In this document: piece after piece, positions 8,201 to 47,102 of the stretch
Layout of the letters: each line of letters opens with the position of its first letter
Position numbering within the stretch: the stretch's first letter is position 1
Source: Ashinkailepas kermadecensis
Taxonomy: Eukaryota; Arthropoda; Thecostraca; Neolepadidae
Assembly (NCBI GenBank): GCA_034440615.1
Contig: JAOTOM010004041.1
Coordinates: 80,001-144,000, forward strand
Direction of reading: 5' to 3'
DNA length: 64,000 bases
The notes under the pieces: generated by a model
The model's database searches: none
What the model saw: the letters and a program-made list of their open reading frames with translations, nothing else
What the model was told of the DNA's origin: nothing
Made by a program: the position numbers and the translations under genes

Positions 8201-8361
8201 GGTTGGTTATTGGGTTTTACGACACGTCGACCGTTGAGTCATATAGCGTCGCCAATCTCTCACGCCGATTGGTCGCGGGCCAAGAGTAGCGACAGGTGAG
8301 ACTCGAACTCACAATCTTTCGATTGTGAGACGAGCATCTTGCCCCTAGACCACTCGTCCCC
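8201..8361 (-). mobile_element. tRNA-related SINE, full length, with perfect 12-bp target duplication
   Basis: On the minus strand the element starts at 8361 with a tRNA-like head. It has box A TGGTCTAGGGG (8352-8342), a degenerate anticodon arm resembling tRNA-Val(CAC), and box B GAGTTCGAGTC (8310-8300) inside a 5-bp T stem (GTGAG/CTCAC). The acceptor stem does not pair, so it is not a functional tRNA. A body follows and it ends in GTAAAACCCAATAACCAACC. The insertion is bounded by identical CAAAGTTGTATT at 8189-8200 and 8362-8373. The intact duplication indicates a fairly recent LINE-driven insertion; the enzyme came from elsewhere. Confidence 0.85.
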
Positions 8362-36612: not shown

Positions 36613-38124
36613 TATAATATGTCGGTTGGTGCATGCATTGCTATTTCCGTGAGCATCTCACCATCCACTGTCACTGAAGATAATATAAATTGTATGAGAC
36701 ATCAAGTGTACGGAAGTATATTAATGCAAACAATATTTACAGCACCGCTTAATTCGTTCACAGGCAACCAGTCGGAATTCCTTTGTCGGAACGAAGTGTG
36801 AAAGAGTAAAATGGACCACGGACAGACAAAACAAAACACAGTGCATGCAAAACGCCCAACATTTAATACAGATGACAGCATACAACATGGCCGCATTGCT
36901 GTCGTCATGCCTTGCTTGGCCGACATGTCCAACGCATACGAACATGCGACAGCGTGGAGTTGCCGAGATAACAAATGGATGTCAATGATTGAATGACAAT
37001 GAAGAAGTCCACTGAACATTCCATCATGAAAATAAGCACACGAAGCTTGAAGAAACAGGTGACAAGAACCTGCACACATGCACTAATTGACCGATTAACG
37101 GTTGTACGTGGAATTGTTCGCATATGGTTGCCGTGACGTGATTGGTCTCACGTGACGCTACCTCAACTGAAAGCTCATTATGCATCCAGTCTAATCTGGC
37201 AACCACCTGCCGCAAACTCACTGTATGCACTGAACATTTGTATTGTATGTGTCTAGTTCATTTGTCAAACACGGACTCCGTAGGCAGGTTCATTTACTGG
37301 CGGCTAAGGAGCATTTGCCTAGAGCTAGTTCGGAAAAGTATTGGGACTGGATCGAATAAGGCATCAAGAAGGGCTACAAACCGACAGTCTCATTGCATAT
37401 TTTACTCTTCGATGTCTTTGTGTAAGAAATGAGCGTGTTTTTGATATTGGACAGTGCTTCTTTGTCCTGTTTTATTAATAGGCGTGGAAAGGAACGACGC
37501 TCTGCTTCGCTTACATTGTTCAATTGTCATTCCAGTAGACAGCAACTGGATTGGATAATTTCCTCCAGCAACCACATCTTTATGGATAGGGTCGGACATC
37601 GGCTTTAAAGGAGCTAATCACATATCGTCGTTCTGGAGGAAAATTGAAATTCAGTGCTGCGGCTCGACTGTGTGGGCCATCAGCGTGACAAACGGAGTCA
37701 TGTAGCACCGTGTTAAGTCAATGGATTCGTTCACTTTTCACCTCGTCTTGTGCTTCCACGTATGAAGAAGACCTAGGACGATGTGTTTCAAGCTTTCCGC
37801 CTAACTTGCGCGCCTGGTGTGTGGGTGTGCTCGCGCTCGATAACTACCCGCCTGCACGGCATCAAAAATGAAAGTCGAATGCTACCGGCTGCATAATGCA
37901 TCATGCATCATTATGCAACGGCAAGTTTCTACCAGTATCAGTTCTTTAGACCAATCTAGCATTTCCGTACGCGTGCTCGTCGGCACCTGAAGCTAGTGTC
38001 TTGAAGCCACAGACTGCATCTAAAGCAGCAGTGGTACATAATTCATCAAATTTACGCCGCTATCCTTGCACCAAGATGTAGGTGCTTCCGCCGAAATTTG
38101 TTTGCACTTGAGACCAGCATGGTT
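36613..38124. other. No gene recognised
   Basis: Unique-looking, moderately AT-rich sequence; frames are short and featureless. Confidence 0.4.
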
Positions 38125-38467
38125 GTCGGCGAGGTCGTTCCAGTGTCGCGCTCGTCACTGGCTGACGTGTCGGTGATGTCGCTCCAGTGTCGCGCTCGTC
38201 ACCGGCTGACGTGTCGGTGATGTCGCTCCAGTGTCGCGCTCGTCACCGGCTGACGTGTCGGTGATGTCGCTCCAGTGTCGCGCTCGTCACCGGCTGACGT
38301 GTCGGTGATGTCGCTCCAGTGTCGCGCTCGTCACCGGCTGACGTGTCGGTGATGTCGCTCCAGTGTCGCGCTCGTCACCGGCTGACGTGTCGGTGATGTC
38401 GCTCCAGTGTCGCGCTCGTCACCGGCTGACGTGTCGGTGATGTCGCTCCAGTGTCGCGCTCGTCACG
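38125..38467. repeat. 44-bp minisatellite, about 8 copies
   Basis: Unit of 44 bp: GTCGCTCCAGTGTCGCGCTC, GTCACCGGCTGACGTGTCGG and TGAT. Copies after the first are almost identical, so expansion or homogenisation is recent. Confidence 0.93.
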
Positions 38468-38714
38468 AGCACGTGCTCGGCCGGGCGCTGACCTGCCCTC
38501 GGTACTGGTACTGGCGTCCGCTCTTCCCCCACAGGTCGCAGTTTCGTGGCACCGACATCTGGAGGGCATAGTCGTGTTATTGCGGCCAGTTCTGCCGACC
38601 GTGTGGGTAGAGGCTGGGGGCATTGAACACCTATTACCACATCATTAGTATCGTATTTGTCAGCTATTTCCGATACCTGCACAACGTAAGGTTCGTTTTC
38701 TTGTCATGGCTTGG

Positions 38715-39030
38715 CCTCCCCGCTGTCCGAGAGCGTACATGTAAAGATACTCGGAGCCCCGGTGTCGTCCCGAGCTCTCACCGCTGTCAGAGAACGTAGT
38801 GTTAGGATACTTGGGGCCCCGGTGTCGTCCAGAGCTCTCACCGCTGTCAGAGAACGTACCTGTAGGGATACCTGGAGCCCCGGTGTCGTCCAGAGCTCTC
38901 ACCGCTGTCAGAGAACGTACCTGTAGGGATATCTGGAGACCCGGCATCGTGCAGAACGCTCACCGCTGCTAGATAGTGTACGGTAAGAATACCTGAAGCC
39001 CCGACGTTGTCCAGAGCTCTCAGACCGCCG
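38715..39030. repeat. 60-61-bp minisatellite, about 5 copies, decaying rightward
   Basis: Copies share GCCCCGGTGTCGTCC, AGAGCTCTCACCGCTGTCAG and AGAACGTACCTGTAGGGATA. Anchors lie at 38756, 38816, 38877 and 38938. Confidence 0.85.
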
Positions 39031-39359
39031 CTCGATTCTACTTATTTCTCAGTGTGTTTACGATACAAGTAGAGTGGAAAGTGCATAGCACGATATAGAG
39101 GCTTCTGAGCATTATCTTAGAAGTGTAAACATGTAATTTAAACATGGCATGTTTACCCGACGTCAATGTACCACCCACCAAGCCATCGTTGGGTTTGCTC
39201 GTCTAAAACATCGAAAGGTTAATTCACATGCTTTGAATAGCATATTCGCTACCAGGTTTTATGTTAAACATGTTTTTTTCTGCTTGTATTCACTGGCATC
39301 CAGCTCACGCGCATGGCATCGAGAGGCTGATTGTATACGGCTGCGGCTGGTACAGTCGC

Positions 39360-39855
39360 TCCCCTGCACTGATACTGCTGGAGCGATACTTCCTCAGTGA
39401 TGTAGCTGCAGAGATACTGCGGGAGTGATGTTGATGCAGGGGTACTGCTGGAGTGATACTGCCTGGGCGATACTGCCTCAGCGATGCAGCTGCAGGGATA
39501 CTGCGAGAGTGATGTTGATGCAGGGGTACTGCTGGAGTGATACTGCCTGGGCGATACTTCCCCAGTGGTGCAGCTGCGGGGATATTTCGGGAGTGATGTT
39601 AATGCAGGAGTAGTGCCGGAGTAATGTTGTTGCAGGGTTGCTACGGGAGCGATGCTGTCGGGGTGATACTTCCTTAGTAATACTGCTACAGTGCTACTGC
39701 TACAGTGCTACTGCGGGAGGGAGGCTGCTGCAGAGATGCTATGGGAGTGATACTGCCCCAGTGATACTGCTGCATTGTTGTAGTGATATTGCTGCAGTGA
39801 TGCTGCTGTAGTGATGCAGCTACAGTGATGCTGCTGCAGTGATACAGCCGATGCC
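39360..39855. repeat. Degenerate GATACTGCTGGAGT-type tandem repeat
   Basis: Short units (GATACTGCCTGGGC, GATGCTGCTGCAGT) occur with a higher-order duplication of about 90 bp between 39425 and 39570 (GATGTTGATGCAGGGGTACT twice). Confidence 0.75.
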
Positions 39856-40306
39856 AGCCGGTATTTCGCCATGAGCCATTCGCCCGGCCGTTACGGTGAC
39901 GACACATAAACAGTATGCATGTGCCTAGATATATCGTCGTTATTTACGAGAATCTCGTATAACTAAGGATTCATGGCAACTTACTCGCAAAGGTTGTGTT
40001 GTAGCATGCAATCTGTATATCAATGGAACGCCTATGCTCTTCTTCGCTCAATCATAGTTTCCATGCAGGACACAGCCAGTGAACCAGTAGCTACGCTTGG
40101 AAATTAGAATTGGAAAATTAGAGATTATAACTTTAAAAAGTCCTTGTGAACTGCGCCTAATTGAGTATGCGAGGGCAAGGGAGAAGCTTCACACCACAAG
40201 CTTCCAATCCAATTTTCCCGGGGGGCTTTGCTCCTCCCACCCTTCTCAAAGCAGTCGCACCTGTGTGTCCCAGAAGGCGAAGCGTTTCAAAGGCGTCAGT
40301 GTGCAC

Positions 40307-40515
40307 TTAGCGCGATTCGTCCGCGCCCGACGGAGCATCTTCGCCGGCGGTTTGCATCACTTTGACTGCAGGCGCCGGCGGCATGGCCTCCCGCTTGACG
40401 GGCGGCATGATCGCTCGCTTGACGGGCGGCATCATCGCTCGCTTAGGCGGCGGAATGGCCTCGCGCTTGTTGCGCCCACCGGTGACGATTCGTTTGGCTT
40501 GCTCCATGGCGTCAC
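40307..40515 (-). CDS. Putative prohormone, downstream exon with Lys-Arg-spaced peptides and stop
   Basis: Minus strand, 209 bases. It follows a plausible acceptor (GTTCTGATTGACAG, just above 40515) and ends with TAA at 40309-40307. Entering in phase 1, it encodes 68 residues. These are DAMEQA-KR, IVTGGRN-KR, EAIPPP-KR, AMMPPV-KR, AIMPPV-KR, then a 27-residue tail starting EAMPPAPAV and ending GADESR. The four similar Pro/Met-rich units between dibasic sites are the hallmark of a multi-copy neuropeptide or peptide-hormone precursor (family knowledge). Two internal units come from a 24-bp tandem duplication. In-frame ATG codons at 40507 and 40522 would allow independent starts, but neither gives a signal peptide. 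The exon is phase-compatible with 45353-45431. No Gly precedes any KR, so no C-terminal amide is predicted. Peptide family not recognised. The antisense frame is a shadow. Confidence 0.55.
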
Positions 40516-40529
40516 CTGTCAATCAGAAC

Positions 40530-42125
40530 TGGTCAGAGTTGCACCACATGACCATATGAAGGGCGCGAGGCGGAGCGAGGTAGGGGCACGTTTGAAATTG
40601 GGCGTCACTGACGTCGACGGTGTGGTGGCCACTCGCGGTCCACGGCTATTACGACCATTTCACTTCTCTTTTTTGGTGTGGTGGGGGAGGCGGACGCTGT
40701 ACACGAGCAGTATTGGTACCGTCCTTTCTGTCGAAGAAGGGTCAATGCGGGGAATCGCTCGTCTTGTCAAGGGGAGATGGTGCACTCGACACGTTTGGGA
40801 GATCTCTGTTGCTTACAGAAATACACACAGCCTTGTGGATTTTGGCAATATCGAAGAAACCACCGGTTTAAGACGAGCTCCCTAACCCATCTCTGGCTGA
40901 GGTGCTGAGCTACCCGCGACGGCGGCGGGTTTGGTGGATTCTAAAAGCGTGGTAAAGGTCGCAGGTAAGGTCAGCTGAAATTATTCAAGCACGTCTCAAA
41001 ACACCGGCGGAATTTCAAGCCAGGGTTGAGCATATCAGATAGCGAAGTGGATCGAACAACACCAGGCACCACCTGATGTGGTATATCTCAGATCAGGTGA
41101 CCTTCATGTCAGGTCACGGTCATGTGATATCAGCTGTCGTTGTCGAATCAGGCGAAGTGGTGTATTTCTGAAATCACGTATACATGATGAATCTGAACAG
41201 GATACTCTTTCATCGTTCTTTCTTCTTCAGGGAGCCTCACATCTCAATACGGTCACTTGTCTTAGCAGAATGGCCGCTGCACTAAACCAAGAGGAAGTTA
41301 TATAATTCACCCATTGTTATTTTGGGTGAGATCACGAGTGGACCAGATTTACCTATAGAGATCCCGTGAATCTATGGCGGCCCGTAGACGTGTTGCCACA
41401 AGCGCCACGTTGTATTTACATCGCACATAAGGATTTCGAATGACTTGTGTTGAACGGGACTTGCTTTTTTCAGAAAAGATACTATATATATTCATTTGCC
41501 GGCACTGGAAGTTGAACCTTACTTGTGGCATAGTGGCTTGGGCAAAATCGCGAAAACCCCGTTGGGATAGCACTGCTCGACCGATCAGTGATTAAAACTC
41601 GGGGAAGGGTCTCGACTTGGCACATTTTGGGGGCTATTGTCCACCTACCCAAATGTTTGCTCACCCTACCCTACAATAGTTCAACTTTCCGCATGGAACT
41701 TTATGGGCGGCCTCCCATCGATGTCGCCCCCTCCCCCCCCCCCGTCCTCCACATTGCATTTATGCATTGATCCCGTTTCCCCAATATTTTACAGAAATTG
41801 GGACCTCTGTTCACAGTGGTTCCTTCAGAGGAACGGGGAGGGGGCAGAGCATCCTTATTTTACCACAGCGACTTGGGTGCTCGTGTCCGTTGAGTGACTC
41901 GCCACTCAGACCAGCACTGCGCTTCACCCTCCGCCTTCCCACCCCTGGGAGGAGAGATGAATGTTGGCGTGTGGTGTTCCGACACTATGCTGTCAGCAAA
42001 TGGCAATTACATGCGCAGTTCATCACTGTTTACGTCAGACAAACACACCTACACGCCTCGCAGAAGTAGATGAGAAACAGTTCCTGAGAATCAGAATGAA
42101 GTGGTGGCCGTTGGTTGACACAGGG
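40530..42125. other. No further exon recognised
   Basis: It holds unique-looking sequence with a C-run at 41725-41745 and no element ends. Confidence 0.4.
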
Positions 42126-42450
42126 TCGTTGGTTGACGACCTCACTGGACCGTCCTGTGAGGCGGCACCAGGGCCAGTTGACGACCTTACTGGACCGTCC
42201 TGTGAGGCGGCACCAGGGCCAGTTGACGACCTTACTGGACGGTCCTGTGAGGCGGCACCAGGGCCAGTTGACGACCTTACTGGACCGTCCTGTGAGGCGG
42301 CACCAGGGCCAGTTGACGACCTCACTGGACCGTCCTGTGAGGCGGCACCAGGGCCAGTTGACGACCTTACTGGACCGTCCTGTGAGGCGGCACCAGGGCC
42401 AGTTGACGATCTTACTGGACCGTCCTGCGAGGAAGCACCAGGGCCAGCAC
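42126..42450. repeat. 45-bp minisatellite, 7 copies
   Basis: Unit of 45 bp with GTTGACGACCTTACTGGACC, GTCCTGTGAGGCGGCACCAG and GGCCA; the last unit has diverged. The period is 15 codons, so tidy repeats such as VDDLTGPSCEAAPGP appear in one plus frame. Other frames on both strands are equally open, so no protein is called. Confidence 0.92.
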
Positions 42451-43410
42451 ACCGACGTGCATCACGGCGCCGCCTTCGGTGAAGACCTCCGGCGGATGAG
42501 ATTCGAATTTGGCTTTTCTCTCACAACAGCGTCGTGATTGCATCGTCGGCGCTGCTCGCTCAGCCACCAGTCACGAGACGGAAGTGTCTGTAGCAGGTGA
42601 CCGTCAGCTGTCGAAGGAACCCTGGTTCCAGTTAACAACTTCTTATGCGCATGCTGACGCTGCTTCTGGTGTGTTTTGACTACCTCCTCTTGGAAATTGA
42701 GGTGCTCTTGTTCAACTTGTTAATTTTCCCCACCAATCTCGGATGTGTTCTTCCTCGGATGTTTTTTCCTCGGCCACTCTCCCACAAAAGTGTTAGGTGT
42801 GCATCTGCACGTGACCGATAGTCGCGGTTACGGCAGCACCAGCGCGGTGCGTTTGCCACCACCGACTCACGCCACCACGTGCTAGCCTCAGCCCCCGCAC
42901 ACCCGCCGTCCGCCTGCTTTTGACGTGGCAAACAGCCCAGAGTCACGCACGGCCTGCTCTCTGCCAGTCGGCACGAAAATTACATCAATCACGGACGGTG
43001 AAGCTCGACCATTTCCCTGCAGCCGCCAGTCGCCAGCAGCACCCGGCTCGGCCTCACCACCCCAGCTGTCCACGAGTCGTCCAGGCTCACACGAGACATT
43101 GTGCCACCTACACAGGCCCGGAGACACCAGCAGACCCCCCCCCCCCCTTCAGTCGAGGCGCCCGCAGCCGATCAGCGTCACCTCGGCCGTGGGCGTGGCT
43201 GAGCTGGAGCCAACACTCTCGCAGCCGGAACAGATGTTGCCGGTTTGGCGTCTGCGGAGCTGAACATTGGAAGCCGGCCGGATGGCTCGTTGTCGTTCCG
43301 TGGAGCTTCAGCTGGCACGGTTGCGCGCGCGTCGCCTCGCTTGTCTTGCGGAGCGCTGGATGTTCGTTTCCAGTGGGGGAAGCGGCTGTCTTCTCTGCTG
43401 GACGCTTTCT
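42451..43410. other. GC-rich segment without a confident exon
   Basis: 42800-43400 is CpG-rich with open frames on both strands, for example a plus-strand frame from 42925 with TKITSITDGEARPFPCSR. No splice-bounded exon can be defined. A C-run lies at 43134-43146. Confidence 0.35.
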
Positions 43411-43413
43411 TAC

Positions 43414-43529
43414 GGAACGCTCGTTGCTATATGACGTCTGCAGTTGATGCGCCCCTAAACTACAATACGGAACGCTCGTTGCTATATGACGTCTGCAGTT
43501 GATGCGCCCCTAAACTACAATACGGAACG
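43414..43529. repeat. 58-bp perfect tandem duplication
   Basis: Two identical copies: ACGGAACGCTCGTTGCTATA, TGACGTCTGCAGTTGATGCG and CCCCTAAACTACAATACGG. A third, short partial copy (ACGGAACGTTCGTCGAG) follows. Confidence 0.92.
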
Positions 43530-45040
43530 TTCGTCGAGATGACGGTAATATCTCATTGTGCGCATGTGTGCATACATACAGCGCGTGTGTCGCGGAAGTG
43601 CATGCGGTACGTGCACCTCCGATGTCCACATAATCCAGCTTGAAGCCTTCTCGCGTGTGATGTAGTAAGGAGAGCCTTGTTGAATATATTTAAAAGTAGA
43701 ATGAGTACATTTTCTGGGTCGGATAATCGTATCTTTTAATTCTAACTTGTGCAGTAGAGGGATGTGAATTGGGAGTGCATGGGATGGAATTGAAGCTAGT
43801 ATTTGTGCTCTGAGCAAGTATGGTCATGATGAACTCCTGACAGGCAGGGGAGAGTCCCTCGCTGTAATTGTTTTATAATGCGGTCGATAATTTCTCTTTT
43901 TTCGTGTCGCTGACTTTGATGTTAAGGAGGTCAGTCACACCGTTTTATCGAGGGAATAGCCGAGGAAATCGAGGGAACATAAATGGCAGCTTGGCGTGCA
44001 GCCAAACAGTGGTACATCATTTGAATGGATTTCCTGAGGAAAAACTGGCGGGTCCTTCATTGCATGTGCTTCAGAAACGGGTTCACGTGTTCTTCAGGAG
44101 TCGGGATATGATATTTGATAACGTAGATAATAGGATATGCTGCATTTAGTATCTTCGCCTGAGGATGGGGCTCTAGTTATCGTTGCGCGCTGAACCTCTT
44201 ATGTCTTGGATGATGCTTGCATCTTCCCTTGATAGGCCGAACCCAGATGGGCTCCTGTCGCTCCTATTGAGACTTGCACCTTGATCTTTATGACCTATTG
44301 ACACTGAATGAAAAGAAGTAGAGCTAAGCCTGCGTTGCATCTTTCCTTTCCGATACACCTTTACCAATAACTGTGCCAATGTCAGTACCGCTATATTAAA
44401 ACCAACGTTTGAAGTGAAAACTCATTTCTTCCTGCTTGCGTCTTTCTTCGCCGAAATTTTCCACCGAAGTGAACGCTCGGTAGCAATAGGCGTATTTTGC
44501 ATGCATATTTTGCAGCATGCATGTTTTGCGGAAGCAAGGCCGCCGCTTCACGCCATTCGTCGTTCGGTTTACCTTTCCGTCAATGAGGTCCGGATGACCG
44601 GTGTGCCACTTTGACCAGTGGACATTGTGAGAGCAACTAATTATATTTTTTTAGAAGCCTGACAAGCATTGTCAGGTGAAACGCTCACCGAAACAAAACA
44701 AACAAAAAACGATAGCTGGGTGGATTATTTTACTGGGACGCTCGTTCTTGGGCGATGTGTTGGCACGACCAGTGAGTGACTGGCCACTACCGGTCATGGC
44801 GCAGAGTTGGGGGCGGCACGGGAGTTGGGACATGAGGCTGACGAGGCCACGGGACAGGCTCTTTTGGAACCAATCGAGGCACTCCAATACAGGCGGCACT
44901 TCTGGAGAGCTTTCACCAGGGATCATTGCATGCACACCGTAAGATAATGTTCAAATCAATGTAGGATTGTGGCATCGTAAACATCTAGCACTGGCAGTTT
45001 GTGAACGATAAGATCACGGACATGACGACAGCGACACGAA
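43530..45040. other. No gene recognised
   Basis: Unique-looking sequence. Minus-strand frames at 44173-44379 and 44672-44935 show no family motif. Confidence 0.4.
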
Positions 45041-45044
45041 AGAA

Positions 45045-45160
45045 TCACCCTCTGTGGGATTCGAACCAGCAGCCCTGCACTTTATGACCAGCAACCTTGC
45101 ACGTATGTCGAAATGTCGCCTGCCTATCGTTCTTCTAGGCCCTGTCATGCGCAGTTCAAA
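45045..45160. mobile_element. tRNA-like SINE remnant
   Basis: The minus strand carries a clear T-arm/box B (CTGGTTCGAATCCCAC, about 45070-45055). A second, plus-strand T-arm-like palindrome GCAGTTCAAATCTGC lies at about 45151-45165. No clear box A is paired with either, so this is a degraded tRNA-derived element. Confidence 0.4.
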
Positions 45161-45352
45161 TCTGCATAGCATGTCACCATTTCCCAGCCATCCATGCCCG
45201 GAAGAAGAGAGGCGGGATACTCCGGATGACTCACGACCTAGAGAATCTAAATCTAGAGATCTAGTTGATCTAGAGAAGTTCCACCGCGCCGCGCGAGGTT
45301 TCACGATTTTGATTGGCCACCACCAGCTGAGCAACGTCAGCGTTGGACTCAC

Positions 45353-45431
45353 CGTAGTTATGACGACGACTGCGGCGGCGGGCGGTGCAGACGACGACGG
45401 TCAGCAACACCAGACACAGCACAGCCCTCAT
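45353..45431 (-). CDS. Putative prohormone, first coding exon with signal peptide
   Basis: Minus strand, ATG at 45431-45429. It encodes a textbook secretory signal peptide, MRAVLCLVLLTVVVCTA, with a two-residue charged start, a hydrophobic core and small residues before the likely cut after Ala17. Basic RRRSRRHNY follows. The frame reaches TACG|GTGAGT, a consensus splice donor, after 79 coding bases (26 codons plus one). Unspliced, it would stop after 53 residues. The phase matches the acceptor of 40307-40515, and joining restores Gly27 and gives a precursor of about 95 residues. A TATA-like/initiator pair lies upstream. Start choice: it is the only ATG giving a signal peptide. The joining is inferred; each exon is visible in the sequence. 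The gene is too short to be found by ORF length alone. Confidence 0.55.
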
Positions 45432-45435
45432 GGCG

Positions 45436-45478
45436 TGCTTGTGTGTGCGTGTGCGTGCGTGTGCGTGTGCGTGTGCGA
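45436..45478. repeat. (GT/GC)n microsatellite
   Basis: Alternating GTGTGCGT units inside the predicted 5' leader of the prohormone exon. Confidence 0.85.
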
Positions 45479-45532
45479 TGGCTCCGATGCCCGCCCCGTC
45501 GTGCAGCGTCGCGCGCAGATCCGCACCTGCGA

Positions 45533-45570
45533 TAATGGCGCCTCGGCCGGCCGGCGACCGCCGTTATAAC
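45533..45570 (-). promoter_or_regulatory. TATA-like box and initiator for the putative prohormone gene
   Basis: On the minus strand AGTTATAACGG places TATAAC at 45568-45563. Thirty-two bases downstream an initiator-like GCCATTATC puts a likely start A at 45536. That is the canonical TATA-to-start spacing, and it would give a 5' leader of about 105 bases before the ATG at 45431. The leader contains a CACACG simple repeat (45477-45440). Spacing supports the call; neither element is a perfect consensus. Confidence 0.35.
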
Positions 45571-45571
45571 T

Positions 45572-46035
45572 TCTTTTTTTTCTTCTTTTTTTGGCTGCTG
45601 TCGGCGTTGACGGACGGTGCCGTCGCCACACCGGTGGTGGGCCGGACAGGTCCGACAACACACCAGCTGCCGACAGGCCCCCCGTCGCTGCCGACAGGCG
45701 TCGTCGCTGACGTCGCTCCGTGCGCTGTCGTCGTACGCTCGCGGGCGGTGGCGTTGACCCTGCCACGAGCGGACCCAGACACTGGTCGACGGAGGAGTGA
45801 TTAGTGGTGTTCGTGCGCCTCCACGAACCAGGTGCTCTTGTCATCCTCCACTGTCCTTCAAACGTCATTGCCAGCTGCTTTTCGAAATGAAAACTGTTCG
45901 TTTCGCTTAACTATGGGCAATGTGTTTTCGGACTTTTTGAAGCCTTCCCTATTTAAGAAAACAAGCAGCGTATTCTACAAATTTCGAGGGGCGTGGCAAC
46001 GTATTAGGATTTTAGGGGTCTACCATCATTTAGTA
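45572..46035. other. No gene recognised; GC-rich segment upstream of the prohormone exon
   Basis: The segment 45600-45790 is CpG-rich and could be part of the promoter region. A T-rich tract (TTCTTTTTTTTCTTC) lies at 45571-45590. Confidence 0.4.
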
Positions 46036-46746
46036 CTACTCTGAGACTCGCATAATGCTCCACACCGGGTGAAGTAATGCCCTTTCGAGGCCTAAGTGGC
46101 GGCCGTGCGGACTTGCGGCCCTCGGTCCGCCTCTGAGAACGATTATATCACAGTCGCGACGTGCGCACGTGTTTGTCACGTCTCCCCTGTTTGCGGGCAT
46201 GTCGCAAAATCGGGTCCACGTCAGTTTGACAGGTTGTTTTCGCAGCTCTGCCAACTGCTCAGGAGTTGCGCGCGGCCGGCACGCTTCTAGCATGCCAAAT
46301 AGAAGTGAACTTAGATGCTTTGATGCAGTGAAGTTAGATGCTTCCACTTTTATCGGACGGCTACACTGGTCGGGCCGTTCGGTGGCTTCGTGGAATGCCT
46401 CCCCGTCCTGTCTCCTCCGCAGTAAAATGGTCCATTCAGATGAGCCGGAACTGTGACGTGATTGCTTAATGCGTCGTAGAAAGTCGCGCCGATGCGGGCA
46501 CTCCTTTTCGGAACGTCGCGCCTGCTCGTTGGCTGGCGCTGCAGCGAGCCGATATCTCTGCGATGTCAGGGGAAGTCTGGAACTCGGAATGCACTTGACA
46601 GCTCCAGCCCGGGCGCCTTCGCTATCGCCTTGGCCGTGCTTCGACGCCCAAACTCTCGTGATGGCAGACAACAACCCGGATGCGTATTCTGGGCAGCTGT
46701 TAATGTAGGTCCTCAGAAACTTGGGCGTTACCAGACTAGGTGTCAT
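46036..46746 (-). CDS. Unidentified 236-codon open frame, possibly non-coding
   Basis: This is one of the longest frames in the window not driven mainly by a tandem repeat. It contains protein-like stretches such as ATPEQLAELRKQPVKLTWTR and HLSSLLFGMLEACRPR, but no recognisable domain, signal peptide or splice signal. Its first codons come from the 46-bp repeat at 46723-46860. The plus strand is also open across 46169-46456, and GC content makes chance frames likely. Confidence 0.2.
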   Translation of the reverse strand: MTPSLVTPKFLRTYINSCPEYASGLLSAITRVWASKHGQGDSEGARAGAVKCIPSSRLPLTSQRYRLAAAPANEQARRSEKECPHRRDFLRRIKQSRHSSGSSEWTILLRRRQDGEAFHEATERPDQCSRPIKVEASNFTASKHLSSLLFGMLEACRPRATPEQLAELRKQPVKLTWTRFCDMPANRGDVTNTCARRDCDIIVLRGGPRAASPHGRHLGLERALLHPVWSIMRVSE

Positions 46747-46860
46747 TGTACTCCAGGCGCGGCCACTTGGGCGTTACCAGACTAGGTGTCATTGTACTCC
46801 AGGCGCGGCCACTTGGGCGTTACCAGACTAGGTGTCATTGTACTCCAGGCGCGGCCACTT
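46723..46860. repeat. 46-bp minisatellite, 3 identical copies
   Basis: Unit of 46 bp: GGGCGTTACCAGACTAGGTG, TCATTGTACTCCAGGCGCGG and CCACTT. Confidence 0.93.
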
Positions 46861-47102
46861 GCTCAACTGCAGCTAACTCGCCGGGATTAGTGTCCATGCA
46901 TTGCGAATGCATGAAGCAAACCAATACCATGCGTCCTGTAGGGCCTCAGACAGATACCGGCCACATTGTGTACTTCGTATTCTTCGTGATCATCTATGGT
47001 TGCAGCAGCCAATCAGATCGACATGGTCCCTACCCTTCCGGGCGCTCACGAAAAACCGTGTTGTGTGTATGGGGGGGGGATAATATTTGTGTGTGCATGG
47101 AT

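Follow-up and report, generated by a model that had tools for sequence, protein, structure and literature searches.

Do two short open stretches on the minus strand of a barnacle contig, nearly five kilobases apart, together specify a peptide precursor, or is the resemblance an accident of the repeats among which they lie? The locus belongs to a 64,000-nucleotide window (the whole stretch analysed) of contig JAOTOM010004041.1 from Ashinkailepas kermadecensis, assembly GCA_034440615.1, positions 80,001 to 144,000 of the forward strand. One way to understand it is as a gene of two coding exons for a small, secreted, prohormone-type peptide precursor that is cut at Lys-Arg; we give this reading a probability of about 0.6. 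Such a precursor is probably lineage-restricted: the kind of gene is known, while the peptide family would be new.

The candidate gene and its predicted peptides

The original prediction specified two exons, a donor, a GACAG before the second exon, phase 1 and a TAA stop, and each of these is found at its place. Exon 1 begins with the ATG at 45431 (minus strand), and MRAVLCLVLLTVVVCTARRRSRRHNY gives the minus-strand residues from that ATG up to the GTGAGT donor after 45353. It comprises a 17-residue hydrophobic start (45431-45381), then RRRSRRHNY, then the first base of a split glycine codon; its final bases are TAC G at 45353, with GTGAGT next. Exon 2 starts at 40515, preceded by GACAG, and stops with TAA at 40309-40307 (minus strand). 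Joined in phase 1, the exons give an intact frame of 288 nt (95 aa plus stop), in which G from exon 1 and GT from exon 2 make up the glycine codon; an intact codon at the join and a product of about 95 residues had both been foreseen. The joined frame reads MRAVLCLVLLTVVVCTA-RRRSRRHNYGDAMEQA-KR-IVTGGRN-KR-EAIPPP-KR-AMMPPV-KR-AIMPPV-KR-EAMPPAPAVKVMQTAGEDAPSGADESR. The start was judged by hydrophobicity and by eye: its best 10 residues have a mean Kyte-Doolittle value of 3.38, and small residues, C and A, appear by eye at -3 and -1. The exon 1 frame is also open past the donor (45563-45273, minus strand); if the intron were kept, a 53-residue secreted protein would result.

Table 1. Features at the candidate locus and elsewhere; positions refer to the window unless a contig is named
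Feature	Position	Strand	Basis or remark
Candidate coding exon 1	45353..45431	-	direct reading; GTGAGT donor at end
Proposed phase-1 intron, 4837 bases, GT...AG	40516..45352	-	donor and acceptor present, phases agree
Candidate coding exon 2, five Lys-Arg sites and TAA stop	40307..40515	-	direct reading
Predicted peptide IVTGGRN, between KR 40495-40490 and KR 40468-40463	40469..40489	-	direct reading; cleavage inferred
Predicted peptide EAIPPP, then KR 40444-40439	40445..40462	-	direct reading; cleavage inferred
Predicted peptide AMMPPV, then KR 40420-40415; in 24-bp tandem repeat	40421..40438	-	direct reading; cleavage inferred
Predicted peptide AIMPPV, then KR 40396-40391; in 24-bp tandem repeat	40397..40414	-	direct reading; cleavage inferred
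C-terminal stretch: EAMPPAPAV (40390-40364), then KVMQTAGEDAPSGADESR	40310..40390	-	direct reading
tRNA-Val (CAC)	8286-8361	-	ARAGORN and Rfam
Sphingolipid delta-4-desaturase, open frame (L014)	contig C3544, 169225-170307	+	outside the window
Stop-free stretch (L022)	contig C3544, 193441-193644	+	codon score 27.2
Long frames, endonuclease-like and zinc-knuckle-like (L024, L025)	contig C3544, 208846-214416	+	
Neurohormone family, CHH/MIH/ITP type (L029-L032)	contigs C4612, C3605, C2592, C4034, C3907		six matches

Exon 2 encodes a series of similar predicted peptides, each set between dibasic sites: its five Lys-Arg pairs, beside which it has no other dibasic pair, frame four peptides, and EAIPPP, AMMPPV and AIMPPV have (I/M)PP in common. 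The prediction had listed EAIPPP, AMMPPV, AIMPPV and EAMPPAPAV as segments separated by Lys-Arg, and all four are read there; to these can be added two more Lys-Arg sites upstream (AKR and NKR), which frame IVTGGRN, and the qualification that EAMPPAPAV is followed by Lys-Val and so has no dibasic site at its C-terminal side. The residues preceding the five pairs are A, N, P, V and V; the glycine that would permit amidation is absent. Codons at the pairs vary while the residues stay constant, the arginines being written CGA, CGC, CGA, CGA and CGG and the lysines AAA, then AAG. The middle of the exon (40377-40453) is a 24-bp tandem repeat of 2.2-2.8 copies. The first two Lys-Arg sites fall outside it; growth of the repeat alone therefore does not produce the pattern.

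On the precursor reading, the 17-residue start would take the product into the secretory pathway; a convertase of the furin/PC2 type would cut at Lys-Arg, freeing IVTGGRN, EAIPPP, AMMPPV and AIMPPV; a carboxypeptidase would trim Lys-Arg from the freed peptides; and, because no glycine precedes any of the pairs, these would be released as free acids, with no amide. The calculated [M+H]+ values are 716.405 for IVTGGRN, 623.340 for EAIPPP, 645.310 for AMMPPV and 627.353 for AIMPPV. The (I/M)PP(V/P) core of the units may be the active motif, with prolines that would slow exopeptidases, and the Glu-Ala with which two units begin could be removed by a dipeptidyl peptidase. The most likely use is as a putative signal to a receptor, released from neurons or neurosecretory cells. 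Larvae of Balanus amphitrite metamorphosed later when given a convertase inhibitor (PMC3462748); that barnacles use convertase-processed peptides, as this report indicates, is counted in favour of the precursor reading.

Splicing, rarity and coding character

Whether the exons belong together was approached by scanning the contig for a donor preceded by an ATG and a hydrophobic core. A first scan, limited to phase 1 with cut-offs of 2.6 for hydrophobicity and 6 for the donor, gave no candidate; the exon 1 donor scores 5.96. After exon 1 had thus been missed by 0.04, a second scan lowered the cut-offs to 2.4 and 4.5 and admitted all phases. All five candidates that it found lie on the contig's minus strand, three of them in phase 1. 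In two reversed controls the counts were one and three, with a single phase-1 case among the three. Over the 29.5 kb upstream of exon 2, exon 1 is the sole candidate of this signal-plus-donor kind, and it is the contig's sole one in phase 1 at a donor score of at least 5.9, a line chosen with the exon 1 score already known. Its donor ranks in the top 0.17% of 27,473 GTs; the acceptor of exon 2 is moderate, in the top 5.4% of 22,875 AGs. We infer from donor, acceptor and phase that exon 1 is spliced to exon 2. The 2.3 kb downstream of exon 2 lack both AATAAA and ATTAAA and contain the nonstandard AATACA (39290) and CATAAA (39263); the desaturase, for comparison, has its first AATAAA or ATTAAA about 1.4 kb past the stop.

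With other tandem repeats masked, exon 2 is the only place in the 214.5-kb contig where five or more Lys-Arg pairs follow one another in a single frame at intervals of 6-12 residues. Dinucleotide shuffles of the contig, at this spacing and with the same masking, gave runs of at least five in 0 of 200, of at least four in 1 of 200 and of at least three in 39 of 200. A looser scan (spacing 6-14) again found exon 2 as the contig's only Lys-Arg run of at least four, and the reversed contig, at that spacing, had none. Single-base shuffles of the unmasked contig, also at spacing 6-14, contained one or more runs of at least four in 13 of 20 cases, which tells against the rarity of the pattern; long GA repeats may be the cause of these runs. 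When all dibasic types are allowed, the contig has 39 runs and its reversal 31, and RR within tandem repeats accounts for many of the examples; what stands out is therefore the exclusive Lys-Arg order.

Five Lys-Arg pairs arose in 1 of 200,000 permutations of the 68 exon 2 residues, and four in 31 of 200,000 when one near-duplicate unit was left out. The 4689 contigs of the genome total 908 Mb, about 4200 times this contig (214,510 bases), so four-pair runs must also arise elsewhere by chance. The run alone is a strong hint and no proof.

Many minisatellites with units of 14-121 bases lie in the window (38124-39845, 42132-42447 and 46719-46861, for example), and several are open over more than 100 codons in two or more frames; an open frame here is poor evidence of a gene. 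Codon use was scored with training on 675 codons of the same genome (the desaturase, with three cuticle-protein and four neurohormone stretches). For exon 2 the proposed frame comes out at +11.0; the five others, of which one, antisense, is without a stop, range from -20.8 to -56.2. Exon 1 scores +3.6 over 26 codons. Among stop-free windows of 68 codons, 40 of 2437 reach +11.0, and of the seven distinct stretches listed above exon 2 all but one, at 193.4 kb, belong to the desaturase frame. Third-position G+C is 0.75 in the joined frame against 0.95 in the desaturase. Windows of 30 codons are weaker evidence of coding: exon 2 scores 11.0, between the top-1% mark of 15.3 and the top-2% mark of 8.5, against 10.5 for the antisense at the same spot.

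Other features of the genome came to light along the way. The stretch at 193.4 kb has the highest listed codon score outside the desaturase. Among the best 120 of 2914 matches, the desaturase is 87% identical to that of Pollicipes pollicipes and 81% to that of Amphibalanus amphitrite, with Daphnia magna, at 56%, following among the named entries. Chitin_bind_4 has at least 150 scored matches among 349 candidates in the genome. The crustacean neurohormone family of the CHH/MIH/ITP type has matches on five contigs, which suggests several paralogues in this barnacle. On the desaturase, chitin-binding and neurohormone matches the genome was assigned to a barnacle, and sources outside the arthropods were rejected. 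Rfam, at its gathering scores, finds one tRNA and nothing else. Toward the end of the contig, long frames with an endonuclease-like start (GDFNSHHPLW), preceded by a zinc-knuckle-like frame, are presumably those of a non-LTR retrotransposon.

Relatives and rival readings

DNA search finds exon 2 in single copy in the genome, and protein search of the genome yields no second copy. The 89 genome matches at E ≤ 10 include the two exons; the remaining 87, which reach E 0.0156 at best, are taken as low-complexity proline-rich sequence, many of them in repeats on a few contigs. Among about 5.8 billion proteins (lengths of about 52-166 and 158-502 residues; 4 and 38 word-sharing candidates), no relative passed E ≤ 1 and E ≤ 10, respectively. 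Some Pollicipes and Amphibalanus proteins are in that set, so that a barnacle precursor, if conserved and annotated, could well have come up; the empty result tells somewhat against a conserved hormone. Gene sets often omit proteins of fewer than 100 residues, which softens the weight of the missing barnacle relative. No family in Pfam or NCBIfam matches the candidate at E ≤ 10, and Pfam gives three weak matches to ten frames of the window, none above its cut-off. Four solved structures match at E ≤ 10; the best, a fragment of IFT52 at E 0.11, is taken as a chance proline match. A mention of the peptides was not found in the main texts of papers. The original prediction could name no family for the MPPV-type peptides, and these searches found none.

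Chance, in a window rich in repeats, is the foremost rival: a short 24-bp tandem repeat, one of many such in the window, happens to be open in one frame and to spell Lys-Arg, the signal-like stretch has nothing to do with it, and there is no gene. The surroundings suit this reading, with 16 TRF rows within 38000-47000 alone, the repeat in the middle of exon 2 itself, and an antisense strand that is open through the exon within a 264-codon frame; so do the empty homologue search, the four-pair runs in the cruder shuffles and the sheer size of the genome. It fares badly with the dinucleotide shuffles, in which five pairs never arose, with the reversed contig and its lack of any run of four, with the two pairs outside the repeat, and with the codon use of exon 2; it would also need the coincidence of a signal-plus-donor exon in matching phase, a rare object of which both strands of the contig together hold three in phase 1. 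We consider chance unlikely.

A second perspective grants that exon 2 is coding and denies it exon 1: the exon would belong to another gene, or would start at its own ATG (40507), and with no signal peptide the Lys-Arg pairs would go unprocessed. That ATG stands in GCCATGG, which we take to be a Kozak match, the acceptor is moderate only, and the joining of the exons is itself a matter of deduction. Against this, a signal-like exon in matching phase lies 4.8 kb upstream on the same strand, alone of its kind over 29.5 kb, and exclusive, evenly spaced Lys-Arg would have no obvious use in a cytosolic protein; the reading is improbable. A third concedes the secreted multi-peptide precursor and disputes its use, which would be exocrine: a cement-gland, settlement-cue or defence peptide. 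Architecture cannot separate a hormone from an exocrine peptide, and proline-rich multi-peptide precursors are known among insect antimicrobial peptides. Settlement peptides, too, are counted among barnacle signals in a review (PMC10532818). The predicted peptides, of 6-7 residues and mostly neutral and hydrophobic, are unlike cationic antimicrobial peptides, and we hold this last reading to be the least probable.

The secreted precursor cut at Lys-Arg is thus the reading we prefer. Of the original proposal, a multi-copy neuropeptide or hormone precursor, the part that stands is architectural: a signal-like start, similar peptides bounded by Lys-Arg, a short product, two pieces placed in the correct order and phase, and a pattern rarer than chance in the main controls. 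The larger idea can be put forward only tentatively, and we would not stake even odds on it: that the locus is the founder of a family of free-acid (I/M)PP(V/P) hormones, new and restricted to barnacles, made by convertase processing from a tiny single-copy prohormone and serving a signalling particular to barnacles, possibly in settlement or moulting.

Comparison with known peptide systems

A survey of barnacle neuropeptides in 2012 searched with arthropod peptides already known and arrived at 16 predicted families; its main text names 14, none of which resembles the candidate by name (PMC3462748). With such queries, an orphan precursor like this one would have escaped that survey. Barnacle metamorphosis depends on convertase-made peptides (PMC3462748). 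If the reading is true, the candidate would provide an orphan ligand open to testing, and its gene would exemplify a hormone restricted to a single crustacean lineage.

One likeness is to fungal precursors of the alpha-factor type, in which Lys-Arg-Glu-Ala joins a convertase site to one for a dipeptidyl peptidase; two of the candidate units start with the same four residues. Kingdom and peptides differ, and the resemblance is one of motif only. Proctolin and other free-acid arthropod peptides are likewise short and proline-containing with a free C-terminus; proctolin precursors hold one copy, and of a different sequence. Similar in plan are the multi-copy arthropod neuropeptide precursors (allatostatin A and B, orcokinin, tachykinin-related peptide). 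From these the candidate differs in having no amidation glycine, peptides of 6-7 residues and no Pfam match; we know of no sequence in common between its peptides and those families. What it has in common with them is the design: a signal-like start, and similar short peptides bounded by dibasic sites within one small precursor. All four of these families are reported in Balanus amphitrite (PMC3462748).
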